Assembly (NCBI GenBank): GCA_032158295.1
Contig: CM063247.1
Coordinates: 9,304,675 to 9,368,674, forward strand
DNA: 64,000 bases
Source: Pycnopodia helianthoides
Taxonomy: Eukaryota > Echinodermata > Asteroidea > Forcipulatida > Asteriidae
Reading direction: 5' to 3'
Shown: positions 1 through 26,658 of the stretch, in pieces
Numbering within the stretch: the stretch's first letter is position 1
Layout of the letters: every line of letters begins with the position of its first letter
Made by a program: the position numbers and the translations under genes
Notes under the pieces: model-generated
Told to the model about the DNA's origin: nothing
What the model saw: the letters and a program-made list of their open reading frames with translations, nothing else
Database searches by the model: none

Positions 1-1208
1 GAGTCAATTCCTTTGTGAACATTTTGACAGACAGCATAAAATAGGTGCATGTAAGTGCGCTGTGCGAGGGGTCTATATCTGCTGCCACCAAGCATCCCAA
101 AGTCTTCCGTTAAGTCAGTGTTCTGGGAGGTTTTCATAGAGCTGCCTAAGTCCACTTGTGCGAGATTTCTGGTGTTAGTGATGCACAACTTACGCAATAA
201 ATGTTGCGGAAGTGGACTTACGCAGTTGCATAGAGTTTGGTGAAATTGGCGGCTGGTGGGTAGGATTCTGCCATTATCAGTACCTTTGGCTGTGGCTCTG
301 GCTCTAGATATTAAAAGCCAATGGCTGCTACTTTAGCTGAAAGTTTTCACTTCATCAGACTCGGCCTTACTATACTAACCAGCAAATTAACTTTGTGTTC
401 TCCTGAAGATGAGCAGAGTATACTGTTCGAAACGTTCGCAAGAGCCAGTTGGGCAGGAGAGTAGACTGATAGTAATAGGGTTTTAATATACATTGTCGTT
501 TGCCCGAAGGCTCTACGCCCTTCTTCCAAGTACTTTTTCCAGTAACAGAAGGCTGTAAGCAATAAAATGGCCCCTGACAAAAAATATGGCATCACTGTTA
601 CATTTTAGTTGAAAAATATTTCTTCAAAGACATGTTTTCCCATTCCCGTGTAGAATTTAACCTTCACATAGTGACTTATGAATGGCAGACAACTGATCAA
701 ACTGTCACACTCAGTTTTATTGAAACACAATTTTGAACAATAGTTGCCCTTTCTCCAACAACTTTTCGTTACGCCCTTCTTTTGGGCACATGAAGACATG
801 TTGAAAGTAAGGACATGTTACATGGCGTGTAACATCACCCACTTCAGTGCTAGTTTTGAATGGCACTGTCTGCAGCAATGCTCTCGGCACATATTATGGT
901 TGAAGCTATGGCTGAACTTACAAAATATAGAAATTAACAAAATATAAAGTAATATTTGCCTCTCGGAAGGTGACAGTAACGGTAGCTACAACACAGTTGG
1001 TCAACAAACATAATAATCCAACTCTACTCCAATCTGTAAATAGACAATTCCTAATTGCAAGATGAGACATTGGCTACCTTTTTTAAAACAAAATAAAAAA
1101 CCCTGAACAAACGACCAAAGTCAAATCTTACCTTCCCGATACAGAGTAATCTAAATAAAAAGAATTAACTTTAGCATAAGAATCTTCCACTCTCCTCAGC
1201 GGGGGTGT
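1..1208. other. 3' flank of gene 1, no gene seen
   Basis: No convincing coding exon is visible. At about 135-232 a short inverted repeat (core AAGTCCACTT / AAGTGGACTT) looks like a miniature element. At about 405-440 there is a match, in opposite orientation, to the core of the palindromic element at 6670-6826. Confidence 0.4.
716..721 (-). promoter_or_regulatory. Possible poly(A) signal for gene 1
   Basis: The minus strand reads AATAAA about 490 bp past the stop codon. I saw no earlier canonical hexamer on this strand between the stop codon and this point. Confidence 0.3.
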
Positions 1209-1342
1209 TTACAGCTCAGCTGTAGCAGTGAACCCATCGGCACTACAGGTGTAAGTGCCCCCGTAGCGTCTGGTGTAGTTGTCAATCTGCAAGCGAGTCA
1301 CTGTCCCGGACGCATAGATAGCCTGCACACGTCTTCTACTTC
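1209..1342 (-). CDS. Gene 1 exon 13: second half of Ig domain 2 and stop
   Basis: The acceptor CTCTTAG at 1343-1344 is the one that preserves frame. A closer TGTGCAG would put the exon out of frame. The exon reads SRRRVQAIYASGTVTRLQI, then RRYGGTYTCSADGF, and ends ATAEL with TAA at 1211-1209. The Y-x-C completes the Ig fold, and the protein ends just after it. Confidence 0.8.
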
Positions 1343-4300
1343 CTAAGAGTGTGACAAGTTCAAAATTCAAAAGTTCAATTTCCACTTTTCAATCTGTCAA
1401 AGTTTTGCTCTTGGGTTTTTGTAACTACCGCTGTGCTAGCTGCCGGGATTGAGAGTCCTTCCTTGTGTCCCTCCTCTTCAATCAGTGTGCCTCTTTCCCC
1501 TTCCCCCTTCCCTGAACCCCATCTAAGGTGCAGTACCCTAAAATCACTGAAACAAGATTCAAGTATGAACCTTAAGGCGCACCGTCGTATAAGACCGCAA
1601 CATGACTGCTAAACACAGATCAACTTTGATAAGGAAAGACTAGTATTATGTATGTCACCGGTCTGCGCGCTACAGCCATGGTCCCATTTACTGACGGTAT
1701 ATTACCAAACACGGGGGTCATTGTGTTGGTACATTGACACTTATCATAACGTAAAGAGGGAAAAAATCAATCATGAAAATGAATAACACATGCACTTCTG
1801 GTTTTCTAAATTAATTTCTTTTTAATTTTCGTTTTTAAGATTTTTCCTACAAACATCGCTTCATGGCTTTTTTTTTACTCAACGCACACACCTCTGAGCA
1901 CGCTCACAAGCATGTTTTCCCAACGTTTCTCAATGAATGGGCTCTTAGTCTTTGTTATCTCGCTTTTTTTTTTTTGCTACAATACATGCAACAACCACTG
2001 AATGCTAGCGGGTGAAACAGTGCATTACGCGGCGATAACATACAAAAATGACTTTGATAAGGAAAGACTAGTATGTCACTGGTGTGCGCGCTACAGCCAT
2101 GTACAGCATGGGTCATCGGTGGTTCGCGCCAGTATTATTATTATTAATAGCATGGTCAGCGACTTCAATCTTTGGTACATGTATGTTTCAACACAGCTAG
2201 TTAAAAACTAGACAAGCTGCACAGTGTAGGTTTTATTATAATAAAATGATAACAAGTACATGTAGGATTACCCTGGACGAATGAAATCATTATTATACAG
2301 TATAAATGTAGATTTCACACTGTGGTCATCAAAATGGTCTCAAGCAGTTCCACATAGACGCAGTGACTTTTTTGACCTTTGAAAGTCGGATAAGCCTTGT
2401 CTTATATGCAGGAAAATACAATACACACCCCCTCCTCCATGCATGTCTTAAAAATCAATAAAGAAAATCTCTACTAGTAACAACAATTGTAATCGTACCT
2501 GTTCTGATTACTTTTCCATTGGGATCTGTCCACATTGGCTGGACTCCTGGCATCAGATTGTGGGTGCAGTCAACTGACTTACTTACTCCGGCCTCTGAGC
2601 CCATACCAATTACGTCTCCAATCGAAACCCCTTTCACTGAAGACAAGCAAACATATAACCAAATTTGTCTTTAAAATATTTTTAAAAATATGAGAGTGTT
2701 TGTTATAATAAAAACAAAATTCCCATCTGAATGCTTAGTAAACATAAAGTTTATACCAGTTCAAATCCTCAAGATAAATTGTTATATTTAAAATGTGCTT
2801 TTTGTTAAAGGTTTTATTTGGGATTTGTAGAGCTGACAAAATAGACACAGACAGTCTTTGTGATCAACCAGCAAACCTGGGAAAATTTGGGCTTGATCTG
2901 TTGTGCGAGTCAGGAGAAAATAGTGAACAACCACTAACAATTTTCAGCATGTAAACAAACTGACCCTAATTTCGATCGTAAAAACAAAATCAGCTGTAGC
3001 GGTTTTTTAAAGGTTTTCAGGATGCAGTTTTTCTTGAGTACGACTTCATTTCAGAGGGAAATATTTCAGAGAAAAAAATGGTTCTAGTATGAACTTCGTA
3101 GTCAGTAAGCTTTCAGACTAAATTAAACGATCACTTTTTTATCCTTACCAATCCTGTATAATACCATTAAGAAAATGGCATTTGAAGACCCCCCCCCCCC
3201 AAAAAAAAAAAAAAAAATAGGGGGAAAAAAATAGGAAAAATTCAATTTGCAACAATAAAAATTAAAAACAGGATGCAAGAAAAGCTTACCATTATAGCAC
3301 TGGCCATCAGCTTCACTCGGCATCATGTCACAGCTCCCGCCAGATCCCCCGGAGGCCATCAGGTCTTCCTCCGACAGGATCCCTTCGAACGTCTCCAGAC
3401 ACTTCTTAACGGCGAGAAAGCACAGCTCCCGACACGGCGGCACGACACGCTCCCGACACGGCGGCAAAAAGGCCGAGCACATGAAGGGGCGGAAGAACCT
3501 GCCGCAGGTGCTGTTGAAAATGGGGGACAGGGAGCTGAGCATGGACAGCTTGTCACTGTTTGACAGTCCAGGCGGATAGTTGGGCATTGTTGTGGTGTAG
3601 TCGAGACCGATCATGCATTCAGGGAGGGTGATAGGTACACAAGTTTCTGTAACGAAATATGAACGAAAAAAAAGAGACCTGTCAATAACTATCACGTTTG
3701 ACTGCAGTTAACTTAGTTAATTCACATAGGACACTATTTTAGCAACAAGTGCACTGCGTAGAGCATTGGGAGACCTTTTGGGACACTATGTGGCATTAGT
3801 CTTACCACACAATTCCTTAAAGGCACAGTACACGTTTGGTAATGACTGTAAAAATGAATGTCAATAAAAACTTACTTGGTAAGAAGTACAGCAGCCTTGG
3901 GTTGTATAATGAATTTTGAGAAACTTTTAGCTACGGTTATGGAAAATATATTTCACTTTTTATTCCCCAAAATTTGAATCTGAGAAGCATTTCTGTCAGG
4001 AACGCTTCTCAGACTGTGTGTTCCTATGGGGAATATTCTTCCTGCGTGGAAATATTCGCTCCGGTTTTTCGGTGATATCTCAAAAACACGACCACCTTTT
4101 GAAGTGAAATTTTTACATGTTATTAGTTTCATTGCATGTACCTACATTTATATAGGATTAACACAATCAGTAGGCTCCAATTACCAAACGTGTACTGTGC
4201 CTTTAAGTCTCAGCTAAGTGTGTGCACCCTCCACATGACATGAAGTGGTTAACTCAAGTACACCTGGACAGCTCAGCAATGACACCCCATCAAACATTAA

Positions 4301-7300
4301 GAAGAGTTCATAGAAGTCAGTAACTCACTCACTGGAACTACATCTTTAAATCCCATATTGGTATTACTATCTGATAAGTCACTATTTATTACTTAAGGAT
4401 GGTAAGTCAATTTTCTGGTAAATGGGTAAACTTGGGATTTGGGTCATTTGTTGTACATATAAGCCTACAACATTTCCTCTCCTTTTTGCATTAGTGTGAT
4501 TTTTCTAGTGTTTTCCTTTCACTGAATATTGCCATGGTTAAGAGGTCCAATCTCAATTCCGTTCTTTGCTTGCCCGGGTTTTGTCTTGTTAGTCATCAGC
4601 TACTTTTTTTAACGATGCTTTTTGAGCAGTCTAGTTCATGTATCTATTTTTTGTAGGTTATATCGCTTTTCAGGTTTACTGTTTAAACCGTTTAAATTGT
4701 TTAACTTTTGTAATTTTTGAACAATGTAAACACGTCAATTTAAGTCTTTTTAACTTCTGTCCTGTATTTTTTGAATTAATAATAAACCTAATTGAATTGA
4801 ATTGAATTGAATTGAAAAAAAAGATTCCCTCATTTCACTAAAGACAAAACTCAGCTCTTTGACTCACACATAACAACCTTTTTATCTTGTTGTTTAGTGC
4901 TTCATCCTGTTTAACACTGCTGTGACTGGCTCTGTCCCAACCCAATACTTTGAAGCAACTTTCAAAAGTGTCATTTGGGTATTTATAATGAAAATTAACA
5001 ATAATACCAACAACTTTTTTAGATTTATTATTTTCCCTCAGAATCTAGAGAAAATGCTCTATTTGGTGACACGAACATCCAACTTGGTCCCCGGTGTCAA
5101 TTGTTAACATTTTCATGTCTGTTATGCATCATGGTAAATGCTGGGAAGTTTCCGGTTGCCACAGCTGGTCTTAGATTGATTGTCAGAAGCCCTGTAGGAA
5201 ATGCTTTGAGTTTTTTTTCTATTTAGGAAATACGCAAGGTGTCCGTAAGTTAATTTTTCAAACATTTTAAGAAATGTGAGGCCTCATGTAAAAAAAGTCA
5301 ACATAATTTAAACAAAGAAACTAAGAATAATTTACATAAGCCCGCTTCAGAGTTAAAAACCTGGACTCACAAAGATAACTGTCAATATTTTTTTATTCTT
5401 GCAACTTTTTGTAATTCTTAATCTTATTTTGCACCCAAAACCAAGGTGTACTATCCCTTGAAGGTAAGTCTTAACTCAAATGATATCTTACCAACACTAG
5501 TTGTGCAGTTCATCATTTCGTCCATTCCGTCTGGGCAGTCATTGTTGCCATCACACAAAGCCGTTAGTGGGATACATACGTCTCCACTCATTGGGCACAG
5601 GAGCGTGCCTGGGGGCACTGGCCATCAGATGTATCACCTACGATCAGGACAAGTCAAATCACCTTGAAAAAGCTACGACCATAAAGTTGCTGGGTTATCA
5701 TTTGAAACTACAATCCCGGCCATATCTCGTTGGGCCCCCCTTCCCCCTTTCAATGTTGAATCACAGTGTTGCACGGTCTTCTGCGTTCCAGACAACATTG
5801 AGCGGGGGGCGGGGGACGGGGGAGAGAATGTTTATTATGAGACAGGGAATGGTTATTGTATGGTTATTGTAACGTTATAGGAACGGGTGGCCCAAGCATT
5901 TTGGCCGGGATTGTAGAAACTTCAATTTAGCAGGGATGAGATTAGACGAATGTGACATTTCCTGAAAAATGGCTTGCAGGCCTGGGTTCAGCAGATTTAC
6001 AGACACAATAATATCACCAGAAATACAAAACTACAGGTCTGGACTCAATTCGGACTATTAAAATAGTTTGTTTAAATAAACCTTAAAAAACAAGATGCTT
6101 ATTTTTTAGAAACCAAAATTTGCCAATCACGCCCGAATTGTGGGACCTTTCCAATGGTTTAATGATAATATAAAAGTCACTTGGGAAAAATTCTTAATTG
6201 TTTTAAGTAACCGAAAACAGAGTTCAAATCATCAACAATGTCCTGTTTATTTTTTATTATTTATCATTGTCAAGGTTTTTGTTTTTGATTTGTCAAATTT
6301 ATTTTACTTTTCTATATTTCATGGCCAAATTTTACTTTCCCAACACTATAAAATAATTTGTATAGCTGTACACAGTGTTGTAACTTCACTGGTCAGGGCT
6401 GGTCACTGTAACCAGTTCTGAAAAAAAAAACGACCAGTACTCAAGCAATGTTACAACATTGCCAACCATTTCATTTTGCCAACAGTCAAAATAATACTAA
6501 TCTGAGATCCGTTTCTTTATTTATTATTACCAGCAGACAAGCTCCATCCCAGCCCTGTCTAGGGAAAATGAATGACACTCCTACTGACTCTTATCTTAAT
6601 CCTCTGAAGTTTAGTATTGTTTGAAGCTTTGCATGGTGTGGACAAATGGGAAGGAACTATAAATAAATAGTACACTTGCGGGTACAACCATGTGTAAATC
6701 TCTCTTGTGAGAGTGGTGGCTCTGAAAAGAGCCGGTGGGTCTCCACGTTTCGAACAGTATACTCTGCTCATCTCTGCACCACTCTCGCAAAAGAGATTTA
6801 CACATGGTTGTACCCACAAGTTTACTATTTGTTTATAGATCCTTCCTACCTCTGCAGTTTGTTATACATTGTTTCAGTTTGTAGTACACTTGCTTCACTC
6901 AAAAAAGACAAGCAAGGGCTATGACTTTGTGGTTGTATGACCTGGTTTTGTGACCCTTAGGAGTGGGTAAAGTGTTCTGTCGACCTGGACAGTGTGTTGA
7001 CATCTCCTGGCTTATAGTTTTGATTGAAAAAGTAGAAACAGTTCACTGGAAATCACAAGTTTCGCAATACGCAAGCTGGAAAGAGTCCTGATGTACAAAT
7101 GTACGCGGATCAAAGTAATCTTGAATTAATTTTCATTTATAGCAAATCTCTCCCTGGGAAACCTTCCTTCACTCTAATAAAATCCAACACCTATGGTGAC
7201 TCTCAACACCCCAAACTGTTGAACTCTGATTATGGTGGTATGCCTTACCCCTAAAAGCATAAACAGTTTAACCCTAACTCCCTTGAGTTACTTAAAAGGA

Positions 7301-10300
7301 CCAATCCCCACTCTAACAAAATCTAACGCCATACATACGTAACACAACACCGCAGTCTGTTGGACTCTGATGTGGTGGTACCTGTTTGCCTGATCCCATA
7401 TGAAGTATAATCAATTGACTACTGCAGTCCTCAGTCCAACATAATCAAACAAAACATGGATTAGAAGGAGTTTCAGAAAGGAACGGTTCCTGTAAAAAAT
7501 GTTGACAGTTCTCAAAACTTTTTTCTATGAAATGATGATCTTGGTTATCTCGAATCAAATGAGTGCTTGGCATACCAGAAGCAGCAGATTTACAAACTGT
7601 AAACCTTATAGATCAATTTTAGTTACAAAACTCAATACTGAACTTACTTCCACCTGTGCAGTCTGACTCGTCCATTCCGCTGGGACAATCGTTTACTCCG
7701 TCACACACAGCAGAGAAGGGTACACACTTGTCACCAGATGGACACGGAACCTCGAACGACTCACATGTCTGTGATGGAAAAGGATCTGAAAAGAAGAAGA
7801 AAAAAACAATCAATCAAAAGCAAACGATTGATAAGTTCATCAATCAGTCAATAAACATGACCATCAATTGATAAGTTCATCAGTCAATCAATCAATCAGA
7901 CTATCAATTGATTAGTTCACCATTCATTAAATCAATTGGTCAAACAATGGATTAGTGCACCAATCAATCAATAACCTTGACCATCAACTGTATAATTCAT
8001 AAGTCAATCAATCAATCAATCAATCAATTGGATCATGCAATTTAAGAGGTTTATCTATCAAAAAAATCAATTGTCTGCTAATTTATTAGTTTACCAATCA
8101 GTTAATCTTTTTTTTCCTATCAAAAAGAGTACATGTATGCCTGATCCCATGTAAAGCATAATCAATTTACTACTGCAGTCCTCAGTCCCAAAAAGTCAAA
8201 CAAAACATGCATTTGGGTTGATGTGTTGATGTGTTGATGTTGATGGGTTGGGGGTTGCTAGGTTTAAAGGAGGCTTGAGTTTCAGAAAGAAACATTTCCT
8301 GTAAAACTTTTTGACAGTTCTCAAACTTTTTTAAGGAACTTAAAAGCTTTGTTATCTTGAATCAAAGGGATGCTTGGCAAACCAGAAGCAGCTGATTTAC
8401 TGTAAACCTCACAAAACTCAATACTGAACTTACTTCCACCTGTGCAGTCTGATTCGTCCATTCCGCTGGGACAATCCCTTACCCCGTCACACACAGCAGA
8501 GAAGGGTACACACTTGTCACCAGATGGACACGGAACCTCGAACGACTCACATGTCTGTGATGGGAAAGGATCTGAAAAGAAAGGGAAAAAAAAAATCAAT
8601 CTAGGGCAAAAGATTGATTAGTTCATCAATCAATCAAAAAATTGAACCATCAATTGATAAGTTCATTAATCAATCAGTCAATTATTTGGACTATTAATTG
8701 ATTAGTTCATTATTTAACAAAACAATTGGTCCAACAATGGATTAGATCACCGATCAGTCAATAAACTTGACCATCAATTGATTAGTTCATCAATCAGTCA
8801 ATCAATCAACTAGACTATCAATTGACTAGTTCATCAACTAAAAGTCAATTGGTCTGCTAACTAATTAGTTCACAAATCAATAAAAACAAAATTCCTATCA
8901 AAAATGATACATGTGTGCCTGATCCCATGTCAAGCATAATCGATTTACTACTGTTATAGTCCTCAGTCCAAAAAAATCAGACAAAACATGCAGTTGGATT
9001 TTGATGGGTTTTGGGGTTGTTGGGGTTAATAATAATACAATAATAACTAGTTCTTATATTGCGCATTTTACAATAACGTATCAATGCGCTTTACATTAGT
9101 GCCCTGGTCATTGGGCCAATAGCATCCCTGTAATCTTTCTCAGCTCCCTAGGGAGTATACAGCCCCGAGCTGCCGTGGCGCTCCAAAGGTTTTTTCAAAA
9201 ACAATATCAACCTCTACCCTGTCAGGTACCCATTTGAACCCCTTGGTGAAGAGAAACAATTATAGTAAAGCATCTTGCTCAAGGACACCAGTGTCATGAC
9301 CTGGATTCGAACCCACACCCTGATGACTTAACCACCAGAACTTGAATCCGATGCTCTTAACCGCTCAGCCATGCCACCCTACGGGTTAACAAGAGGCATG
9401 AGTTTCAAAAAGGATCTTTTCTTGTAAAAAATGTTGACAGTTCTCAAACCTTTTTAATGAAATGATAATCTTGGTTATCTTGAATCAAAGGGATGCGTGG
9501 CATACCAGAAGCAGCAGATTTACAAAGCTTACAAACCTTATAAAACTCAATACTGAACTTGCAGATTTACAAACCTTACAAACCTTATAAAACTCAATAC
9601 TGAACTTGCAGATCTACAAACCTTACAAAACCTTATAAAACTCAATACTGAACTTACTTCCACCTGTGCAGTTTTTCTCGTCCATTCCGCTGGGACAATC
9701 CTGTATTCCATCACACAATGAAGTGAAGGGTACACACTTGTCACCAGACGGACACGGAACCTCGAACGGCTGACATGTCTGTGATGGAAACGGATCTGAA
9801 AAGCAAAAAAAAAAAAAAACAACCAATCATAAGCAAACGATTGATTTGTTCATCAATCAGTCAATAAACTTGACCATCAATTGATAAGCTCATCAATCAA
9901 TCAATCAGTCAATTGGCCTATCAATTGATTAGTTCACCATTCAATTATTCAATTGGTCCAACAATGGATTAGTTCACCAACCAATCAATAAACTTGACCA
10001 TCAACTGTATAGTTTATCAGTCAATCAATCAATCAATTGGAACATGCAACTGATTAGCTAATCCATCAAAAAATAAATTGTCCGCTAGTTTATTAGTTTA
10101 CCAATCAATTAATTTTGTTTTTCCTATCAAAAAGAGTTCATGTATGCCTGATCCCATGTAAAGCATAATCGATTTATTACTGTAGAGGTCAGTCCACAAA
10201 ATCAAACAGAACATGCAGTTGGATTTTGATGGGTTGGGGGTTGCTAGGTTTAAAGGAGGCTTGAGTTTCAGAAAGGAACATTTCCTGTAAAAAATTTTGA

Positions 10301-13300
10301 CAGTTCTCAATACTTTTTTTTATGAAATGATTATCTTGGTTATCTTCAATCAAATGGGTGCTTGGAATACCAGAAGCAGCAGATTTACAAACTGTAAACC
10401 TTATAGACCAATTTTAGTTACAAAACTCAATACTAGACTTACTTCCACCTGTGCAGTCTGACTCGTCCATTCCGCTGGGACAATCGTTTACTCCGTCACA
10501 CACAGCAGAGAAGGGTACACACTTGTCACCAGATGGACACGGAATCTCGTACGACTCACATGTCTGTGATGGAAAAGGATCTGAAAAGAAAGAAGAAAAA
10601 AAACAATTAATCTAGGGCAAATGAATGAAAGTTCATCAATCAATCAAAAAATTAGACCATCTACTGATTAGTTCGTCAATCAATAAATCCACCAATAGAT
10701 TAGATTAACCAATCAAATAATCAACTTTTTCATTAATTGACTAGTTCACTAATAAACAAACCACTTGATCAATCAGTTCAAAAGAAAACCTAATCAAACA
10801 ACCGTGTCATTCGATGGAAGTGGTTAAGTTCACAGCTAGACCACTCATACAACAACACCCCACAAAACATTAAAAAGAGTTGTTAGAAGTCCATACATGT
10901 ACCTCAACACACTGGAACTTCAACTTGTTTAACACGTTGACTGCCGCCTACGAGTATATTCGTAGTAACAGGTGTAACGGATTCTGCCACTACGAGTATA
11001 CTCGTAGAGAATGAAAGGCTTTTGTATAGTGAATTGAATACACTGGCATCACTGAGAACGCAACGTATACGCTTCTGGCAGTGGTGAGCACACATCGTTA
11101 AAATTTGTATGCTACAACATGTTGACAAAAAAAAAAGTACTTATTTGGTATGCACGCATGCGCACCAGACTGGGATGCTTGGCAAATGGGAACGCCCCTT
11201 CAAATTTATGACCGGCAGTCAACGTGTTAAAAACCCATCTGAAGAACGAACTAACTTCGCCAATAATGCTTTTGCTCAAGGACTAAGTGCCACAACTGAG
11301 AGCCAGACCCCACACTCTGAGCCGCCAGTGCTTAAAGTCAAGTGCGCTGATAACTCAGCAGTGACATGCGGAAAAAAAACATTCAGAAGAAACTGTGCTT
11401 GCATAGTATAATTATCAGATAAGTCTCCTATTATTACTCAAGGATGGTAAGATTCCCTCATTTTACTAAAGACAAAACTCAGCTCTTTGACTCACACAGC
11501 GATAAGTGCGCCATCCTGTTTTTAAAACACAGCTGTGAGTGGCTCTGGCCGAACTCCGGACTTTGATGCAACTTTCAAAAGTGAGATTTGGGTATTTGTT
11601 CGTGAAAATTAACAATGTTACCAACAACGTTTCATATTTATCATTTTTCCATCAGAATCTAGAGAAAATGCTCTATTTTCTGAACTTGGTCCCCAGTGTT
11701 AATTGTTAACATTTTCATGTCTGTTATGCATCATGGTAAATGCTGGGAAGTTTCCGGTTGCCACAGCTGGTCTTAGATTGATTGTCAGAAGCCCATAGGA
11801 AGTGCATTGAGTAATTTTTCTTTGGAGAAAATACACAAGGAGACCGTAAGTTACCTTTCAACCAATTTTATGAAGTCATAAGGCCTCATAAAAAATTATA
11901 ACCATGAAACAAAGAAACTTAGATTAACTGCAGTATGTCCACTTAACTTCAGAGAAAAAACCTGGACTCATATATCATTTTTCATAAAAATGTTGGATCC
12001 ATCCCACAGCCACAATTCCCCGTTTTGAACTATTTTTCTAAATGCTCACCTTCCGAGTATGATACCATTTTATCTTAAACTTTCTACTACCAAAATAAAG
12101 CCTGTTTCTTTGGTCATAAATAACTGTCAATATTTTTTATTCTTTCCCATTTTTGTAATTAGTTATTCATTCTTAATCTTATTTTACACCAATTGCAAGG
12201 TGTACTATCCCTTGAAGGTGTAAGTCTTAACTCAGATGATAACTTACCACTGCCAGGACAATCCTGCATTTCATCCATTCCGTTTGGGCAGTCCCTGATG
12301 CCATCGCACAAAGCCGTTGGTGGGATACATATGTCTTCACTCATTGCGCATGGGAATGTGCCTGGTGGGCACTGGCCGCTAGGTGTATCACCTACGAGAG
12401 ATCAGTTCAAACCAAAATAGCTTGAAAAAGCTGCAACCATAAAGTTTCTGGGTCAAACTGGACGATACTTTAGCACCAATGCTTCGTCGCACTGTTGGAA
12501 AATTTCAATTTATAAGCAGGAATGAGATTTGACGACTATGACATTTCCTGAAAAATGGCTTGCAGGCCTGGGTTTCCCGCTTATTCCAGACCCAGAACCT
12601 CCCAGATGTTACATTTCAGCAGATTTACAGACTCTGTGCATCACTAGAAATACAAAACTACAGGTCTGGACACAATGTGGACTATTTTTTTTCCCCTGTT
12701 AGTGATTGCTGTACTTGTTTCAAAAACAATTCTTAAATGCTCAAGGAGATTTTTGAAAAATTTAAAAAATCAGGAAAAATCCTTAAAAAATCACGTGCAC
12801 CTACTTCTGATTGACCAATCAAAAATGTTTGACCAAATATGATTGACCAATCGAAAATATGTTCCCCACTATTGGGATATCTTTATACATAAATCCTCAA
12901 ACCTCCAGGCAGCATCCCTCCATCCTCACTTCCAAAGATGTTGTCCAAGTTGACCGATGATCCAAAATTGTCGTTCTCCACTACACAAGTGTAGACGCCT
13001 CGATTAGCAACGTCTGTGAAATCCTCGATGATAAGGGTTGTTGTGTGCCCACCTGCCATTTCTGTTCGGATCTGTCCACTGATTTCTGCAAAGCAATAAC
13101 ACAGGATTGGACATTTTGTTACAATCAATTTTATTCAAGCCTTACCATCATCATCATCATCATCGATAGACTACAACTTGTGCTCATGTTCAGTCCTTCT
13201 GATTTGAAAATCACAGGTGTGTGGAAAAAAAGGAAAAAGCACACCTGGATTTTTCTAGGCGTGTGATTTTGCCGAGTGCCTAATTTGTGGTACAGGCTGG

Positions 13301-16300
13301 GACAACCATGTCCTTCCTGCTGTCATCGCGCTTTACTTTGTAGCCAATGACTTCCATAACCTGCCACCGCTTACAAGTACTCAGTTGTATACTTGACACT
13401 TTACCAAAATATCCCACGACAATCAATTAGCGCAATACTCAAAGGTTATGACACAATGGATTGACAAAAGTGATGACGCACAAAAAAAGGAAAGAGATAA
13501 CTTTCGCGAAGTTTCGTAAAAAACTTGTGTTGCAGTATGATGAATTACGCCTGAAATGTCTGCCAAGGCGTGCATTACAGAGGGATCAGGCGTGTGATTA
13601 TTTGCACTCGTTGAGAAGCTTTTAAGCAGTGCGGGTGCGATCGCACGCCTCAACTCAGAAGGAATGCACGTTGTGCATCATGAGGACAGGTGTGCAACAT
13701 CGCCTGCTCCATTATCAGCAGTCACAGCGCCACTGTCCTCCTTCTGGTTCCTTGACCGTGGTTTGGGGTTGGGACGCCCACGGTTCATCTTCTCATGGAT
13801 TTGGATCCCAGATGACGACTTGGCAGGCGGGAGGGCAACTCTGGTGTCGCAGACAGCGCCTGGCAAGTTGCAAGTCTCCTTCCTACTATCTTTTGGGTCA
13901 ACTTGGGGAGGTCACCATAAAGTTGTTCATTGGTCACTTCCTGTAACTCTTCTCTTAAAGGAACATTACAGAATTGGTTTTTGCTAACAAAACAGTTGCT
14001 GACAGTGTAAGCACTTTATGTAATCCACCTTATACATAAACTGACAAACCTGTAGAAGTTTCAGATCGATCGGCCATTGGGTCACGAGAAAATAGTAAAA
14101 AACGATTACACATTTGCATGAAATCATATAGATTCAACAAATGAATAAAACGCTCACTGAGCGATAAACTCCAATCGGAAAATTAGTTTATTCATTTCTC
14201 ATCAAATATGGCATTTCAGACAGAAATATTTCAAGGGATGTTTTCTACTATCATCATCATTAGACCGTGATAGTTTTATGTAAATCTGTGATAAAAAAGT
14301 ATATTTTACAAGTTTTTTTCTTACCAATTCTGTAATGTTCCTTTAAGCTCCCTGCCCTATTAACTTCATACATGTACCAACCCTGCACAGAAACATTTCA
14401 TCTGAAATACTCCGTCCACTACCCACAGCACTCGGTAAACATTGGAGACTTAAAGGGAGGGTATTCCTTCGGTAATTACTCCAAATATTAATGACCATAA
14501 AAACTTACTTGGTAAGAAGCACTGAAATAAGTATAACATTTCGAAAAACGATTCCCTTCTAAAGGAATGCGGTTCAAAGATAAAATGACAATTTTCCAAA
14601 AATGAAGGCTTTCCAAAATAAATTCTTTGTTTTGCTTATTGCTTCAACTTCTTTTTTCCTTTTAGTAAGAGACCTCACCTGCAACAGGAGCTCCATTCTT
14701 TACCCATTTGGGTTGCATCGTGGTTTAGCACTATAGCTGCATGTAACTTGTACCTCAGCTTGTGATTCCACTACTGTATCATCTACCGAAACACGGTAAG
14801 CTGAAAAGGACGGCAAAGAAAAAAAGTTCTGTGATTTGTACGCCTTGCTGTTCAGAAACGAAGTACCATGCCTAAGATATTACCGGAGTTTACACTCACT
14901 AAAATGCTGATTTGTTTTGAACTTCAAAGCACAAATAATTTTGTTTTTTGTTCGACATGACGGTCCAACTTTTGGGACCATAGGGGCATCCCACTCGTCA
15001 GTCCCTTCCATTGCTCTCTGTGATGAGAACAAAAGAAAGAAAGAGGACTGATGAGTGGGACACCAGCTATCATCTCAAAAGTCCTCCATAAGAATAGGTA
15101 GATCAGGGTTTTTTTCCTTGTTTTTTTATGTGTGTTTTAGTACATTTTCTTTTTTGGTCTCTGAACCATCTGCACTAAAATGATATGGTCAAACAATTTG
15201 AAGATTTGAAGAAACTTAAATGCCATTTTGTTTTGGGAGCATTATGTGTACACATATTATTTGTGATATGTCTAAAATTGTCTATGTGTAAGTGTACAAT
15301 GGAAGATTATATTCTAGACACTTCGTATTATTTCCACTGCTCTTATGTATTGTAATCATTCAGGAGGGTTTTGTTAACAGCAACAATAAAGTGTGGCCAT
15401 GTATGAATATTTTTGCATCATCAAGCGTTGAAGTATAGGACGTCCTTAGCAACACCCTTAGCAACAGTCGTAGCCGTAGCTGTATACAGTCTTAAAAGTT
15501 CAAAACCTGTCCCTGTTTCAAGGTGAATGACAGAGAGTGCTGCTATCAATCTTGTTTTACAACAAGATTGCATCTTTAAGTTGTTTGGGGATTCCCTTGC
15601 TCTGTATATCTCTTGGCATATGTATGCATTAACTACAAGTTACTTGTTCTTTATTAAGTGTTAACCATTTGGCTCCTCAATATCTGTCTGATGAACAACC
15701 AAAGTGTTCGTGATCATGCCCTCAGATCCCATTCTGATCACACCAGGGGCCAATTCCATAGAGTTGCTTAAAAGCAGAAAATATTGCTTATAATTTTCTG
15801 CTAAGCAGAAAAGAGCAGGATACCATTCACAAATTGTACTCGTGACATGTAGTTTGGCTGGTTACCTTATTCTGGTAAGCATAATTTTGTTGTGCTTAGC
15901 TACTTTTTCTGTAAAAGTGGGCCCAGTCTATATGTCCCCAAAAACTAGCCACTCTTGTTGGTGACAATTCCTTCTCTGTTGCAAGGCCACGTTTGTGGAA
16001 TGCTCTTCCCACCACCATTAGGGAAGCACCATCTCTCATCTTCAAGAAATTGTTAAAAACTCATCTTTTTGCATGACTAAATGTGTTTGTTTTGTAAAGC
16101 ACTTAGATGTGAATAAGAGCTATACAAATATATTAAATGCATGGTACATAGTGTGTAATCATCACAGACCAGCAAAAAAACAGTGAAAAGCTTGTTTATG
16201 TGTGTGTTTTTTTTAACAGTGAACATTTAATCATACCTGATATACACTGAGGATCTTCAAGTGAGCTAGGAAAGAGGCTACAGTCCAGCGCTCGTGGCCA

Positions 16301-19300
16301 CTCCAAGCCGAGATTTGCGAATCCCTCGTTACAGTTCTGCTTGGCCTGGTAGCACAGCTCCTTACAGGGTGGAATTGGCCTCATCATCTGAGAGTCATCA
16401 CAAGCTGGGAGGTGAACCGCGCAGGCGAAAGGCTTGAGGAACTTCTTACACTCCTTTCCGCTGCGGAGGAGGGACACGTAGGGTCGCATCTGATGGAGGG
16501 ACTTCTTCTGATTGTTGTACTCGGTGACGCCACCGCCTGGGCCATCTCTTACAGTGATTGGGGTACTGGTGACCTTGTGGAAGACGTCGGAGGACGCGCA
16601 GATCTTGGCAGATATGGGCTCGCAGGTGCCTTTAAATCAAAATGCATGAATCATTATTTTTTTTAATATAAAACAACTTTAGCAATTCTTTTCACAAAAA
16701 CTTTTTTTGAAGTACTTATTGCAGATTAGCCCTGGTTGGACATGAATGTCAGTCTTTTGTTCACTCCACTTTGTAGTGTTAATACTTCATCCCACTCCCA
16801 TAAAGGGAGTTTGAGTTTGTTTGTTTCCTTTTACCTAGTTGCATACTTATTAATTTACATGTGTACATCATTTCTCCAAACTATGCAAATTGCTGTAAAA
16901 GTGAAACACTCATGTTTGACTGGGCCTGGAGGGGTGCTATTAATTAAGTATACTACTGTACTAGTCCATGGAGGTAGTACATGTAGGGAGTTTGAACATG
17001 AACGACTGTCGAAGTCAACATTTCAAAAAGAGGAGTTAGGCACTCAGCACCCCCCCCCCCCCCCGCCAGTTGAACTGACCGCTCGGCTCGGCACACTACC
17101 ACCATGGAGGTCATGCTTCCACCGGTTCCACCAAGCCTCAAGGAGAGATCCCCACCCCACCCACGATCCAAAACAGTCAGCTTAGCAATTGTCCTCCTCC
17201 AAGATGTAATTGTGAATTTCCTTCCGCCCCCCCCCCCCCCGGATGGATGATGAAGGAAATGGCAACTGATTGATAATCAATCATAATTCTCAGCCAAATA
17301 AAATAGCCTAGCTGGACCTCATGGCCTATGGAAACGAAATTACCTACATATACCACAACCTCTCCACCGCAAAATCCTACTTGGTCAGCTGGGGGTACAA
17401 CTGTCACTTATGATTCCAAACCGTAGATGACCACATAAACATATAAAAGTAAAAAACTTCTCTTCACACTCACACAAGTCAAGTTTACCCATTCAATTCA
17501 TTCGACAGTCATTTCGAATAGCGCCCTCTGTGGTCAGCCTTACTTACTGCTCAACTTTCAGAGCCATTGTGAACACACATTATAACATTTGAAAAGTTCA
17601 TGCTTTTTCGAGATTGCGGCAATCGAAAAAGTAAACACTGGTGATTTGCAGTGTCTTCAAAAGTTGATTTCTGATTGAGTTTGGCAGTATTTCAGTGCGA
17701 ACAATCAGGATTGAAACCCAGCCTGTTATGCGATCCATGTGCCAAAATTTCGGTAAAGGGCACACAAGGGTCACACAACTAAAACGGCAGTTGAGCTGTA
17801 CTATTGAATTGATTACAATTTCGACTGGGAGAAGAGTGTGTTGCCCATGGTCGCAAAATGACCTCGAACGAAACTACCAGTTCCGATCACCCAAGATGGC
17901 CTTGGTGCCATCCGGATCCCGTGCAAGGACGGCAGGGCCCACAACAGGTTAACGGATGAAAAAAAAATCACTGGTGTGGAAAACACTTGAACCATTCAGA
18001 AAAAGAGTAGGGGCCTAAGTGCTGTAAGACCGTGAAGCCAGGGTCTTAATTGTACTCGACGGTCAATCCTCTGAGAGGGGGGGGGGGGTGGTCCGAGTCC
18101 TCACATCCTCCTGCCGTCTGAGTGTCGGGTCCACTCCAAGTCACGAGTCACAAAGGTTGAGTCCAAGTCTGATTCAGGACTCACTTAGCTCGATTCTAAT
18201 TAAGTCCGATGTTTGGCTTATTTGACAAAAAAAATTAGATTTACATTTTAAATAGCCTTTTTTTTTTAATTCAAAAGGGTTATAAGCTTTCATTAAGGTA
18301 TCGCATGAACAAAATCTTCAAATGATAAGTCAGGTTTTTTTAAAAATAATAATGATGAATTATTGCCGGGATCCCGACTTTATCTCACGTCCATCAGCTA
18401 CGTACATGATCAAGCTATATTAATTTTGTGCACTAGCCGCAACAGATGCGAAAGTTATTGTATTATGTCGTTTTGAAACAGCACCATCTGACAAAATTCG
18501 TTCATAATAAGAAATAAATGAATTTTTAAAAAGGGGATAAATGAAAAATCGGGCCATGCAAATTTAAAGACACTGGACACTATTGGTAATTTTCAAAGAC
18601 CAGTCTTCTCACTTGGTGTATCTCAACATGGATAAAATAACAAACCTGTAAAAACTTGAGCTCAATTGGTCGTCGAAGTTGCGAGATAACTATGAAAGAA
18701 AAAACACCCTTGTCACACGAAGTTGTGTGCTTTCAGATGGTTGATTTCGAGACCTCAAATTCTAATTCTGAGGGAGCCGTTTCTCACAATGTTTTATACT
18801 GTCAACCTCTCCCCATTACTCGTTACCAAGTAAGGTTTTATGCTAATAATTCTTTTGAGTAATTACCAATAGTGTCCACTGCCTTTAATACCTTCGGTCT
18901 TTACAGCTCAATAGAGTTATTATTATTGTACGTTATCAAAGCAAACCTTATGGCTATATCACATCAGGGCCCACTTTTATAGAGCTGCTTAAGCAGCAAA
19001 TATTGCTTACAAATTGTTTGCTGAACAAAACATAAGCAGGATACCAGTCACAAATAGTACATGGGGAATGCTATTTTGGCTGGTAATCTTATTTTGGTAA
19101 GCATATTTTTTATTGTGCTTAGCTTTCTTTTGTGCATAAGCAGCTCTATATGAAATTGGGCCTACAGGTTTCATTTACAGGCAACAAACAAGAGTGACAT
19201 CAGTTCACCCATGGATGTATTTTCTACCTCCATGACACCACCTCTTTGCACATTCTTGGTGATACAAAGACAGTTAGAAAAGTGTCTCTTGTTTTGTTTT

Positions 19301-22300: not shown

Positions 22301-23856
22301 AATTATACAGATGAATAATCTAAGACATGTTACAAGCTAAGTGTATGTGGAGTTAAATAAATGAGTTTTCAGCAAGTTTTTAAACAATGGAAGAGAACTA
22401 CAGCATCTAATGTTAATTAGGTAAAGTGTTCCAAAGTTTAGGAGCACAAGCAGAAAAGGCACGATCGCCATTGATGAGGAAGTTCTAGGAATAGTTAAAA
22501 GGGTCTTAGCAGAAGACGAAAGAAGAGAGTGCGAGAAGGCGTAAGGTACAAGAAGATCTGCAATGTAAGATGGAGTTAAGCCAATCTGAGATTTCAATGT
22601 AATTAGTAAAATTTTGAATTGAATTCGTTGTCGAATGGGAAGCCAGTGAAGTTCCTGCAATATAGGTGTAATATGATCATGTTTTTTAGATTTTGTTAAA
22701 ACACGAGCGGCAGCATTTTGTACAAGTTGTAGTTTGTGAAGCTGGTGTTCAGTAACTCCGTATAACAATGAATTGTGTACATCGTATTGGATGTGAGTGT
22801 GCCAGTGTAGGGCCTACTTTCTATGTTGTAGTTTCGTAAACTTTCGATTTTGTTTGTCAGTCCTGTTAGTAAAGTCATTGTGTCACACGTGTACGTGATC
22901 TGCCGATGCACGCCCAAAGTTTTCCGGCTCCATGTGTAGTTTCAAGTTTTGAGTAATATCCGACCACACACGCGTCTCTTGCCACTGTTTTTCAAGTAAT
23001 TTTATGAACGAACTGTGTCCTTTTCGAAACTACGGGTGTACATTTGGCTCTGGCTTGGGTTCTCATTCATTGTTACATTTGAGGCTTTTCATGGTGAATT
23101 ATTTTCATTTAATTCATTTTTATGGCCACACAGTGTTTTTTTAAGAGGTGCATGCTCTGAGAAGAGCCGGTCGGTTTATTCCTATTAATCTTTCTACTAG
23201 TATGTGTGCTCGTGTCGTCCGGGAACACTATACAAACTTGATGTGGATCGGGGTTTCAGCCCGCTATACCTGAATGCGCGGGTTTCCCCTGGAATATTCT
23301 CTTGGTTCCTCTCATCTAAAACTGAAAAATCCTTCTTCGCACCGAGAGTCATTGGCTTTATAATACAACTTGAGGATCCGTATGCCTGGTATTAACACGC
23401 CGCACAACATGCATCGTTTTGCGCACTTAGCATGCACCGTTGCAGCATTGTTCTGTTTTTTTCACTGCACTTTTCAGTGGGTAAGAGTACGCCTAATATT
23501 TACCTTGACCGCCGCATCATGCTTTCCAACAGATGTGTGGTGGTGAAAAAAGGAACCACCAGGGCCCAATTTCGTGGCTCTGCTTAGCGTGGAATTCCGT
23601 GCTAAGGGAGCCATCTAAAGCACACAATTCTATGGGTCATAAGCATATAGTTCTACGGTAAGCAGAGCCATGGAATTGGGCCCAGATCTTCATGGAAGCC
23701 TATCAGGTCCAGATCATTTTGCATCCAAGGGCCACGTCAATTCAGCAGAATGTATGTCTTAATAATAAGTGTCTTACCTGGTTGTTTGCGAGGAACGGAT
23801 GCCTCCACTGCAAGGAGAACCAGCAGCAAAGAGAGAGCGTGCAGCAGAAGCTTCAT
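1209..23856 (-). CDS. Secreted Frizzled/Ig/LDLa multidomain protein (13 exons)
   Basis: Exons in coding order: 23778-23856, 16237-16629, 14679-14800, 12903-13085, 12248-12391, 10443-10580, 9658-9795, 8434-8571, 7648-7785, 5492-5637, 3290-3646, 2499-2636, 1209-1342. All junctions are GT/AG and all introns are phase 1. The product of about 749 residues is: signal peptide 1-19, Frizzled CRD 29-156, Ig about 158-245, six LDLa domains 260-540, Frizzled CRD 543-658, Ig 665-749, stop. There is no transmembrane segment or GPI-like tail, so it should be secreted. Frizzled CRDs usually bind Wnt proteins and LDLa domains bind calcium and protein ligands; the true ligand is unknown. Exons 3 and 10 each lack one base, so the literal sequence does not encode the full chain. 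Corin (Fz plus LDLa) and ROR/MuSK (Ig plus Fz) share parts of the layout, but no protease or kinase is present. Confidence 0.82.
2499..2636 (-). CDS. Gene 1 exon 12: first half of Ig domain 2
   Basis: A 46-codon phase 1-1 exon: VKGVSIGDVIG, SVDCTHNL and QPMWTDPNGKVIRT. The Cys and Trp positions match Ig strands B and C. The split position equals that in Ig domain 1, so the two Ig domains share an exon plan. Confidence 0.82.
2806..3170. mobile_element. TTAA-type miniature element, family B, copy 1
   Basis: The right end reads TGTATAATACCATTAA and the left end is a degraded inverse of it. The interior matches 61993-62390, including AGCTGACAAAATAG and TGCGAGTCAGGAGAAAATAG. Confidence 0.6.
3290..3646 (-). 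CDS. Gene 1 exon 11: Frizzled cysteine-rich domain 2
   Basis: A 357-nt exon (119 codons, phase 1-1) with a complete ten-cysteine Frizzled CRD: TCVPI, PEC, YTTTMPNYPP, STCGRFF, FMCSAFLPPC, VVPPCRELC, KKC, GSC, GQC. The Y-x-T-x-x-P-N segment typical of Wnt-binding CRDs is kept. A 16-bp stretch is repeated at about 3424 and 3451 and encodes the two PPCRE motifs. Exon 12 follows after an intron holding a TTAA-type miniature element. Confidence 0.9.
3817..4206. mobile_element. TTAA-type miniature element, family C, copy 1
   Basis: The ends are TTAAAGGCACAGTACACGTT and the inverse. The second copy is at 27629-28021, and a partial relative starts at about 14451. It lies in gene 1 intron 10. Confidence 0.7.
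4401..4824 (+). mobile_element. Inserted retrotransposon 3' end with AATTG tail
   Basis: The segment is absent from the otherwise matching duplicate at about 11445. It ends in a polyadenylation-like AATAAA and about four copies of the pentamer AATTG followed by an A run. This fits a 5'-truncated non-LTR element or its SINE. No RT motif is left. Confidence 0.55.
5492..5637 (-). CDS. Gene 1 exon 10: LDLa domain 6, frameshifted
   Basis: This exon aligns closely with exon 5, but one base is missing in the run of five G (plus strand 5611-5615) where exon 5 has GGTGGG. The entry frame therefore meets a stop at 5588-5590. The exon is 146 nt instead of the 147 nt needed for phase 1-1. Past the indel the frame gives CIPL..LCDGNNDC and GMDEMMNC, a normal LDLa end. 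It is either an assembly or read error or a broken exon. Confidence 0.78.
6670..6826. mobile_element. Palindromic miniature element
   Basis: The arms ACTTGCGGGTACAACCATGTG and their inverse surround AGAGTGGT...ACCACTCT. A shorter relative with the same ends is at 19442-19548. Confidence 0.6.
7648..7785 (-). CDS. Gene 1 exon 9: LDLa domain 5
   Basis: A 138-nt phase 1-1 LDLa exon: QTCESFEVPCPSGDKC, CVPFSAVCDGVNDC, GMDESDC. It shares GVNDC with exon 6 at the other end of the array rather than with its neighbour exon 8. It closes the four-copy tandem array. Confidence 0.88.
8434..8571 (-). CDS. Gene 1 exon 8: LDLa domain 4
   Basis: A 138-nt phase 1-1 LDLa exon, nearly identical to exons 6 and 9. 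The variable position before the fourth-cysteine region reads GVRDC instead of GVNDC. The flanking introns share the same degenerate CAAT-rich repeats as the other copies. Confidence 0.88.
9028..9389 (-). mobile_element. tRNA-derived SINE inside the LDLa array
   Basis: Read on the minus strand, the head has an A-box-like GTGGCATGGCTGAGCGG and a B-box GGTTCGAATCC. The tail end is rich in TTA triplets. The flanks share GGGTTAA on both sides, a likely target duplication. It explains the one long spacing in the tandem array. Confidence 0.7.
9658..9795 (-). CDS. Gene 1 exon 7: LDLa domain 3
   Basis: A 138-nt phase 1-1 LDLa exon and the most diverged of the four tandem copies: QTCQPFEVPC, CVPFTSLCDGIQDC and GMDEKNC replace the otherwise shared residues. 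All six cysteines and the Asp/Glu cage remain. The intron to exon 8 is lengthened by a SINE at about 9028-9389. Confidence 0.88.
10443..10580 (-). CDS. Gene 1 exon 6: LDLa domain 2
   Basis: The 138-nt phase 1-1 exon reads SQTCESYEIPCPSGDKC, then CVPFSAVCDGVNDC and GMDESDC. It has the six cysteines and the DxSDC-type calcium motif of LDLa. It is the first of four near-identical exons. There is no in-frame ATG near it, so it is easy to miss in an ORF scan. Confidence 0.88.
10929..11230. mobile_element. TTAA-flanked miniature element (piggyBac-like)
   Basis: The ends read TTAACACGTTGACTGCCG and its reverse complement, with TTAA on both sides. The matching duplicate at 4330 lacks the insert. TTAA duplication and the GACTGCC-type end suggest the piggyBac group. 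Confidence 0.65.
12248..12391 (-). CDS. Gene 1 exon 5: LDLa domain 1
   Basis: This 48-codon phase 1-1 exon encodes one LDLR class A repeat with six cysteines and the acidic calcium-cage end (LCDGIRDCPNGMDEMQDC). It is most similar to exon 10, not to the adjacent exons 6-9. The similarity runs into both flanking introns, which marks a non-adjacent duplication. Confidence 0.87.
12903..13085 (-). CDS. Gene 1 exon 4: second half of Ig domain 1
   Basis: This 61-codon exon reads EISGQIRTEMAGGHTTTLII and later NRGVYTCVVEN. It supplies the F-strand Y-x-C that pairs with the cysteine in exon 3, so the two exons make one Ig domain with a central intron. A short Gly-rich linker (GSEDGGMLPGG) follows toward the first LDLa. 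The donor is G|GTTTGAG, weaker than most donors in the gene. Confidence 0.83.
13955..14346. mobile_element. TTAA-type miniature element, family A, copy 1
   Basis: About 390 bp with ends TTAAAGGAACATTACA and its inverse. The interior includes GAGCGATAAACTCCAATCGG. Other copies are at 26809-27204, 32091-32479 and 51639-52029. Confidence 0.8.
14679..14800 (-). CDS. Gene 1 exon 3: first half of Ig domain 1, frameshifted
   Basis: The first part reads AYRVSV...VQVTCSYSAKPR and holds the B-strand cysteine. The last part, in another frame, reads QPKWVKNGAPVAG and holds the conserved C-strand tryptophan. No single frame links them: the first frame stops at 14700-14702, and the second is closed upstream by a TAA. 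The exon is 122 nt, whereas a phase 1-1 exon needs a multiple of three, so one base appears to be missing near 14718-14721. Exon 4 continues the same Ig fold. Confidence 0.75.
15600..16100 (+). pseudogene. CR1/L2-type LINE 3' end, broken by a miniature element
   Basis: Translation of 15960-16076 gives GDNSFSVARPRLWNALPTTI, then SLIFKKLLKTHLFA and a stop, the typical C-terminus of CR1/L2 reverse transcriptases. Upstream, LAPQYLSDEQPK also fits but is frameshifted. The two parts are separated by the palindromic element at 15746-15924. Confidence 0.7.
15746..15924. mobile_element. Palindromic element (GGGCCCAATTTCATAGAGCTGC family)
   Basis: The ends are degraded GGGCCAATTCCATAGAG and the inverse. 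The interior has the TGAGCAGGATACCAGT-type core found in the other copies: 18967-19163, 20640-20834, 26787-27375, 53772-53965, 55476-55649, and a weak one at about 62800-62940. Confidence 0.65.
16237..16629 (-). CDS. Gene 1 exon 2: Frizzled cysteine-rich domain 1
   Basis: This 393-nt exon (131 codons, phase 1-1) carries a whole Frizzled CRD. All ten cysteines are present in the usual order: CEP..IC, ECKKF, FACAVHLPAC, PIPPCKELC, QNC, LDC, QC. The segment before the third cysteine is less conserved than in the second CRD and lacks the usual Y-x-T-x-x-P-N motif, so ligand binding may differ. It is bounded by an AG acceptor at 16630-16631 and a GT donor at 16235-16236. Confidence 0.9.
18567..18889. 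mobile_element. TTAA-type miniature element, family D
   Basis: Inverted ends: GACACTGGACACTATTGG on the left and CCAATAGTGTCCACTGCCTT on the right, followed by TAA. A shorter relative spans about 33128-33343. It lies in gene 1 intron 1. Confidence 0.6.
18967..19163. mobile_element. Palindromic element (GGGCCC...AGAGCTGCTTAAGC family)
   Basis: The ends GGGCCCACTTTTATAGAGC and the inverse bound the core AAGCAGGATACCAGTCACAA. It lies in gene 1 intron 1. Confidence 0.65.
19442..19548. mobile_element. Palindromic miniature element, second copy
   Basis: The ends AGCTTGCGGGTACAA and TTGTACCCGCAAGTT match 6670-6826. Confidence 0.5.
20640..20834. mobile_element. Palindromic element (same family), with internal repeat
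   Basis: The core GAGCAGGACACCAGTGACAA is present. An internal segment, AAGCATAATTTTGTTGTGCT, occurs twice in tandem near 20743 and 20774. Confidence 0.6.
22105..22190. repeat. TAA/TA microsatellite
   Basis: An imperfect run of TAA and TA units. It lies at the 3' end of the LINE fragment on the minus strand, so it may be the tail of that element. Confidence 0.8.
22337..22790 (-). pseudogene. CR1/L2-type LINE reverse transcriptase C-terminus
   Basis: The minus-strand translation reads LYGVTEHQLHKLQLVQNAAA, then ARVLTKSKKHDHITP, LHWLPIRQRIQFKILL, a degenerate mid part, and SLPLFKNLLKTHLF. This is the characteristic C-terminal region of CR1/L2 RTs. It is 5'-truncated with no RT catalytic core or endonuclease, so it is a dead copy. 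Confidence 0.85.
23562..23683. mobile_element. Palindromic element (GGGCCCAATTTC.TGGCTCTGC family)
   Basis: The ends GGGCCCAATTTCGTGGCTCT and the inverse lie 122 bp apart. The same family occurs at 57271-57521. Confidence 0.65.
23778..23856 (-). CDS. Gene 1 exon 1: start codon and signal peptide
   Basis: The ATG at 23856-23854 opens a typical signal peptide: MKLLLHALSLLLVLLAVEA, with likely cleavage after the VEA triplet. The exon ends in CCAG|GTAAG with phase 1. It is the only exon of this gene upstream of a 7.1-kb intron and sits about 85 bp downstream of a TATA-like box. Confidence 0.85.
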
Positions 23857-23939
23857 GGTTACAGCCCGTGTGGTAACGATCATCTCCCAGCAGTCACTTC
23901 CCAGGCACAAGTATATACTTCCTGGAAGCCTTGAAGGGG

Positions 23940-23947
23940 TTTTTATA
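23940..23947 (-). promoter_or_regulatory. TATA-like box of gene 1
   Basis: On the minus strand the sequence reads TATAAAAA, about 85 bp before the ATG. Transcription would start near 23910-23920 and leave a 5' leader of about 60 bases. The placement fits a core promoter, but nothing else confirms it. Confidence 0.5.
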
Positions 23948-26468: not shown

Positions 26469-26658
26469 ATGGCTTTAAGGTTCAATTGGAAAGTGTTCAT
26501 ATTGGTGAAGATGTGCATTTTGTTCGGCGGTCTTATTGTCGGAATAGGACGTGCAAGTCTTCAAGCAGCAGGATTAACAGAGGAAAATGCCGCAAGGAAT
26601 GTCAAGACTGAGCCTCAATACGCTCCGGAGAGACAAGATGGCAGCCTACCTGCAACAC
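26469..26658 (+). CDS. SLC24A: NCKX exon 1: start and N-terminal hydrophobic segment
   Basis: ATG at 26469 in ACAATGG. The segment [19 protein letters not shown] is a signal peptide or TM0 as in other NCKX proteins. The exon ends ACAC|GTATGT, phase 1. Confidence 0.8.

Follow-up and report, generated by a model that had tools for sequence, protein, structure and literature searches.

The window, that is, the whole 64-kb stretch of Pycnopodia helianthoides DNA that was analysed, carries on its minus strand a 13-exon Fz-Ig mosaic gene that runs from 23856 to 1209, with AG acceptors and GT donors. The encoded order is a signal peptide, a Frizzled (Fz) domain, an Ig domain split over two exons, six LDLa domains of one exon each, a second Fz domain and a second two-exon Ig domain that ends at a TAA stop codon. 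The exons and flanking motifs were as follows:

23942..23947, minus strand: TATA motif about 90 bases upstream of the ATG, a candidate TATA box (motif only)
23778..23856, minus strand: exon 1, ATG and signal peptide (MKLLLHALSLLLVLLAVEA...), tblastn match E 1.3e-4
16237..16629, minus strand: exon 2, first Frizzled CRD (Fz1) with ten Cys, Pfam E 4.5e-19, 66% to A. amurensis (tblastn)
14679..14800, minus strand: exon 3, first half of Ig1 (Ig1a), 122 nt and one base short, frame break near 14709-14715 (tblastn frame change)
12930..13085, minus strand: exon 4, second half of Ig1 (Pfam, tblastn)
12248..12391, minus strand: exon 5, LDLa 1, type A (Pfam, tblastn)
10443..10580, minus strand: exon 6, LDLa 2, type B (Pfam, tblastn)
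9658..9795, minus strand: exon 7, LDLa 3, type B (Pfam, tblastn)
8434..8571, minus strand: exon 8, LDLa 4, type B (Pfam, tblastn)
7648..7785, minus strand: exon 9, LDLa 5, type B (Pfam, tblastn), 136 of 138 bases as in exon 6
5492..5637, minus strand: exon 10, LDLa 6, type A, 146 nt and one base short, break in a five-C run (compared with exon 5 and relatives)
3290..3646, minus strand: exon 11, last Frizzled CRD (Fz2) with ten Cys, best PDB match FZD3/FZD6, 85-86% to Asterias
2499..2636, minus strand: exon 12, first half of Ig2 (alignment to Asterias proteins, tblastn)
1209..1342, minus strand: exon 13, second half of Ig2 and stop codon TAA (alignment to Asterias proteins, tblastn)
716..721, minus strand: AATAAA motif about 490 bases downstream of the stop codon, a candidate polyadenylation signal by motif only

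A second TATA-like motif is found at 23917 (motif only). When six related proteins were compared to the whole 64-kb window by tblastn at E 0.01, the matches fell into 13 clusters, one per exon, with some matches extending slightly into introns, and the same search found no further copy of the family, no SRCR exon and no FN3 exon in the window. The nine internal exons other than exons 3 and 10 are multiples of three in length, and all 12 introns are in phase 1 once the missing base in each of those two exons is allowed for. Exon 1 lies about 7 kb from exon 2; the N-terminus is nonetheless common to the predicted proteins of Asterias amurensis (P0001) and A. rubens (LOC117295480, P0002), in which it reads MKLLL(H/N)SLALLLVLLAVEA and aligns with the product of exon 1. 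This alignment and a top 19-residue hydropathy of 2.31, at residue 3, bear out the signal peptide that the first-pass annotation had placed here. At the other end, the TAA at 1209-1211 comes just after the position of the last residue of both Asterias proteins, and the C-termini at the equivalent position are -EL in four relatives and -DL in P0082. The earlier proposal of a single gene ending at 1209 was upheld, as the predicted relatives neither split the gene nor run past the stop. A continuation through a possible donor overlapping the stop codon was disfavoured, since that donor would be in phase 2 compared to phase 1 elsewhere. A gene fusion or a mis-join was also disfavoured, because both Asterias predicted proteins share the order, the start and the end, and because tblastn gave one place per exon.

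The next gene in the window is arranged head to head with the Fz-Ig gene, with exons at 26376-37419 (plus strand) that, by eye, are typical of a potassium-dependent sodium/calcium exchanger, and an aldehyde dehydrogenase-like ORF was seen by eye at 59211-59513 (plus strand). Two equal-score tRNA matches lie in opposite orientation about 230 bases apart, at 41686-41758 (minus) and 41986-42058 (plus), and two near-identical ORFs about 1.9 kb apart, at 43673-44098 and 45569-45916 (minus), represent a local duplication. Within the intron between exons 9 and 10, a match to the histone 3′ UTR stem-loop, perhaps a repeat, was found at 6695-6738 (minus) with 35.2 bits (gathering cut-off 34).

The coding sequence had been described as one reading path, and this did not hold: exons 3 and 10 are each one base short, both at a homopolymer, and the frame is continuous only by reading across the two breaks or by using alternative splice sites that harm both domains. 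With both Asterias proteins as queries, the tblastn match to Ig1a followed frame -3 down to 14709 and frame -2 from 14715, with KWIKN in Asterias facing KWVKN in the shifted frame of the window. The gap in exon 10 was placed in the five-C run by comparison with the paralogous exon 5. The literal open path through alternative splice sites gives 723 residues, but it was rejected, since it loses the Trp of Ig1 and the first Cys of LDLa6, and the Pfam fit is poorer, the I-set score of Ig1 being 18.6 bits in place of 38.4 (cut-off 23.7). Homopolymers are a usual place of sequencing and assembly slips, and assembly slips are the likelier cause of both gaps because both sit at such positions. The missing bases in exons 3 and 10 could also be real and mark a gene that is recently dying in this species, a reading that concerns this copy and is compatible with each of the functions discussed below. 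We consider this improbable, as both gaps fall in homopolymers, and as the splice sites, the frames of the remaining exons and every expected Cys of the domains are intact.

To define the domains, the joined product of 740 residues was scanned against Pfam with matches listed up to E 10. The scan gave six stretches of Ldl_recept_a (E 3.1e-40), two of Fz (4.4e-27) and two of I-set (5.1e-12). Scanned as single domains, Fz1, Fz2 and Ig1 gave 4.5e-19, 2e-13 and 1.3e-9, and Ig2, which stayed under all four Pfam cut-offs listed for it (best E 4.5e-4), was assigned by alignment to relatives. The domains first read from the minus strand are thus all present in the claimed order. Both Frizzled CRDs are complete, with ten Cys each, as had been stated; the LDLa block contains 36 Cys and the whole product of 740 residues contains 61. 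In the window product and the relatives scanned, Pfam gave no match to a kinase, protease, kringle or netrin domain, and the netrin (NTR) family was absent from the listing for the window product even at E up to 10, as were SRCR and trypsin domains from its Pfam matches. Hydropathy gave no clear membrane span in the window product. Outside the signal peptides, the top 19-residue values were 1.13-1.45 in the window product, P0001, P0002, P0079, P0080 and P0081, and a stretch with 1.74 in P0082 was read as an Ig strand. The earlier statement that the protein has no anchor and no catalytic domain agrees with these results, and the gene is predicted to encode a secreted, unanchored mosaic protein. 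The models of P0080 and P0082 are without a signal peptide, so secretion is predicted from sequence for the other members only.

All relatives are predicted database entries that are listed as uncharacterized, and both Asterias models are labelled isoform X2. P0001 is 54% identical over 97% of the query and 63% identical in the alignment, and P0002 is 64% identical in the alignment. Both have the same layout, start and end as the window product, but they carry five and three LDLa repeats, mostly of type A, whereas the window product carries six, mostly of type B; by signature, the orders are Fz-Ig-L6-Fz-Ig in the window, Fz-Ig-L5-Fz-Ig in A. amurensis and Fz-Ig-L3-Fz-Ig in A. rubens. In Patiria miniata, LOC119740207 (P0079) reads Fz-FN3-SRCR2-Ig-L7-Fz-Ig by signature, with six LDLa counted by Pfam, and LOC119740235 (P0080), which is truncated at the N-terminus, reads FN3-L-SRCR3-Ig-L4-Fz-Ig, with a partial first Fz detected by Pfam. 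Both share with the window product the first Fz (truncated in P0080), an Ig domain, a run of LDLa and the terminal Fz-Ig, but they differ in having FN3 and two to three SRCR domains between Fz1 and Ig1, where P0080 has one more LDLa; the Ig domains of Patiria stayed under the Pfam cut-offs and were assigned by alignment and signature. The two Acanthaster planci proteins, LOC110988813 (P0081) and LOC110989943 (P0082), read (Fz-Ig)4-Ig and (Fz-Ig)2-Ig5-(Fz-Ig)2. Like the window product, they begin with Fz-Ig and have Fz-Ig at or near the end; unlike it, they have four Fz domains each and zero LDLa. Across Fz2-Ig2, the identity of the window product is 75-77% with Asterias and 57-58% with Patiria. 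From these seven proteins, the window product included, we define a family with a first Fz followed by Ig, directly or after insertions, a variable interior, a late Fz-Ig and no anchor, all of which are found in the window product.

A search with the whole product scored 7597 proteins, and among the 78 matches listed, two had this layout and the other 76 carry LDLa; of the latter, P0059 combines Fz with LDLa, and P0042 and P0046 combine Ig with LDLa. With the last Fz-Ig as query, 967 candidates were scored and five proteins matched, every one of them from a sea star. A four-row Fz-Ig profile, which scored just the 7993 proteins that share most words, gave seven proteins, namely the two from Acanthaster, three fish proteins with four Fz domains and two frizzled receptors. 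The fish proteins (P0083-P0085) resemble the family in their several tandem Fz domains and signal-peptide-like start. However, the two that were scanned (P0083 and P0084) contain no Ig, no LDLa and no other Pfam domain at E 0.001, and the Fz domains of P0083 fall outside both sea-star Fz groups in the tree; they are multi-Fz proteins that lack a receptor domain and form a case of their own. The first-pass annotation had suggested looking for the same order in other echinoderms. The two Asterias proteins have it, and no family member outside sea stars was found among the proteins scored in these searches, which divergent members could escape. The relatives found in these searches all come from sea stars, in four named species, and the family has kept ends and a changing interior. 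The titles and abstracts of the literature searched did not mention it. All domains are of known kinds, and it is their combination and its remodelling that are new to these searches. Taken as a whole, the earlier description stood for the domains and their order, failed for the continuous frame, and was silent on the two breaks and on the variable interior.

The two Fz domains are of different types. Fz2 aligns with few gaps to FZD3 and FZD6, its best PDB matches, across its first 89-95 residues, and Fz1 best matches FZD10, FZD2 and FZD7, with 13 residues inserted between Cys2 and Cys3 compared to FZD2. In a tree of 19 Fz domains, from which A. rubens and P0080 were left out, the first Fz domains of the window product, A. 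amurensis, P0079, P0081 and P0082 formed one group of five (98/95). Another group (94/94, just below the mark of the tool) joined the last Fz of the window product, A. amurensis and P0079 to the last two of P0082; the last Fz of P0081 fell outside this Fz2 group, and most deep forks of the tree were unresolved. Judging from these position-specific groups, the two ends were probably present before these sea stars diverged from one another. Compared to A. amurensis, Fz2 is 85% identical, Fz1 67%, Ig2 63% and Ig1 53%. Fz2 is the best kept domain against Asterias only: against Patiria, Fz2 and Ig2 tie (59 and 60%), and against P0081 of Acanthaster the first Fz is better kept (45% versus at most 33%). 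The two Asterias species are 92-95% identical to each other in all four domains (121/132, 87/92, 111/118 and 85/91), so that none of the domains clearly stands out.

The LDLa exons of the window gene are of type A in exons 5 and 10 (116 of 143 bases alike) and of type B in exons 6-9 (120-136 of 138), and exons 6 and 9, which differ at 2 of 138 bases, also have 93 of 100 downstream intron bases in common. The repeat order is A-B-B-B-B-A in the window, compared to one B-like repeat followed by A-like repeats in Asterias (types assigned by eye), and different repeats have therefore expanded in the two lineages. Minisatellite arrays, mostly with units of about 40 bp, occupy three of the LDLa introns (7827-8028, 8613-8837 and 9836-10113), and they may help LDLa exons to duplicate. 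In LDLR, a Trp two residues before the fourth Cys meets the lysines of the ligand, and in LDLR-type LDLa domains acidic residues bind Ca2+. By a loose pattern, this Trp was found in none of the 26 repeats of five proteins, with Phe at its position in two repeats, both from Patiria. The acidic residues are present in the 21 repeats that fit a strict pattern, four with Asn for the first Asp, a pattern that itself demanded acidic or amide residues. The suggestion that the LDLa domains bind lipoproteins is not favoured by these sequences, because the classical ligand-binding Trp is missing from the repeats; moreover, both Acanthaster proteins are without LDLa.

As the best explanation of its function we tentatively propose, at somewhat less than an even chance, that the product is a soluble two-headed (bivalent) extracellular trap or carrier of ligands, similar to sFRP, within a secreted, unanchored mosaic family that these searches found in sea stars only. 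The two Fz-Ig ends would be the ligand-binding heads, and the interior would set the spacing of the heads and add contacts, with LDLa repeats as calcium-stiffened spacers whose number changes by single-exon duplication. An acylated ligand such as Wnt would more likely be bound by the last Fz, and the first Fz, which has diverged, may bind something else. A Fz domain is not in itself proof of Wnt binding; judged from the sequences, binding of Wnt is plausible for the last Fz and less so for the first. The proposal is supported by features common to the family, namely the N-terminal Fz1 and Ig1 (adjacent in most members), the phase-1 interior exons and the late Fz-Ig, which ends most members and is followed by a further Ig in one Acanthaster protein. 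Like sFRP, the window product contains a soluble ten-Cys Fz CRD, its solubility being read from sequence, and a weak structure model of the A. amurensis protein matched an sFRP-3 CRD best; in contrast to sFRP, the window product has two CRDs, Ig and LDLa domains and no C-terminal netrin domain. With a mean pLDDT of 56, and most of the LDLa stretch under 50, that model is too weak for the relative positions of the domains or the shape of the CRD groove to be read from it. Its four PDB matches at E <= 0.001 were all sFRP-3 CRD chains, and the matches below these were mostly MHC Ig domains. Against the trap stand the two frame breaks in this gene copy, the conservation of Fz2, which is best kept against Asterias only, and the last Fz of P0081, which is outside the Fz2 group.

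A rather less likely reading is that the secreted product serves recognition in innate immunity or in mucus, with ends that dock to a host partner and a changeable interior of LDLa, SRCR, FN3 and Ig domains that meets microbes or debris. The interior does differ among Asterias, Patiria and Acanthaster, SRCR domains were added in Patiria, and the two Patiria genes have close gene numbers and are found on contigs of equal length. The number of LDLa repeats, five versus three in the Asterias models, points the same way, and as both are isoform X2 the choice of isoform may contribute; however, turnover of LDLa can be neutral, and the domain best kept in the comparison with Asterias is an Fz. PMC10855680 describes an SRCR expansion in Acanthaster planci and ties such expansion to immune diversity. 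We regard it as improbable that the product is a structural glycoprotein of the matrix, or an adhesive one, whose Fz domains serve merely as disulphide-bonded bricks. The product is Cys-rich (61 Cys per 740 residues), modular, predicted to be secreted and variable in length, as this would require, but the ends hold their order and their position-specific Fz types despite the changes in the interior, and a plain brick needs neither.

The layout had been called unlike any known, and to our knowledge it differs from those of the FZ-CRD families listed in PMC6938638, none of which has this domain order. That paper names FZD, MuSK, ROR2, corin, SMO, sFRP, CPZ and COL18A1 among the FZ-CRD proteins and describes the acyl-binding groove of the FZ-CRD. 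Like ROR and MuSK, the window product combines Ig and Fz in one ectodomain, and the fold search of the A. amurensis model returned the Ig3-Fz of MuSK at E 2.1e-3, among other Ig proteins. In contrast to ROR and MuSK, its Fz precedes Ig, and an origin from them was disfavoured, as kringle, membrane span and kinase are all lacking. Corin has the layout Fz-LDLa5-Fz-LDLa3-SRCR-trypsin with a type II membrane anchor. The window product resembles it in having two Fz with LDLa between them, but it has Ig domains, no SRCR, trypsin or anchor, and an N-terminus that aligns with the signal peptides of Asterias. The only corin-like Fz in the tree (termite P0059, named by eye) had a very long branch and a weak placement, and the tree decides nothing on corin. 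Despite the corin-like Fz-LDLa(n)-Fz order, a degraded corin relative that has lost its anchor and protease is hardly credible, as Pfam detected no trypsin domain in the window product or the six relatives, Ig domains are present throughout and both Acanthaster members are without LDLa.

Returning to the two-headed trap, it is possible, although we would rate it as doubtful, that sea stars possess a whole class of such proteins, with Fz-Ig heads and an exon-swappable interior rebuilt in each lineage, giving differently spaced and decorated scavengers of acylated signals, be they Wnt or other lipidated ligands, with a possible link to regeneration or the body plan. Wnt signalling has important brakes in the soluble Fz proteins, and regeneration and axial patterning are both studied in sea stars. 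The kept ends and swapped interior make the family a clear natural case of exon shuffling, in which different LDLa exons have expanded in related lineages. If the trap reading is true, sea stars would have, in a group of two-headed soluble Fz proteins of their own, an extracellular layer of Wnt control that has so far escaped examination; alternatively, the family would represent a new kind of recognition molecule.
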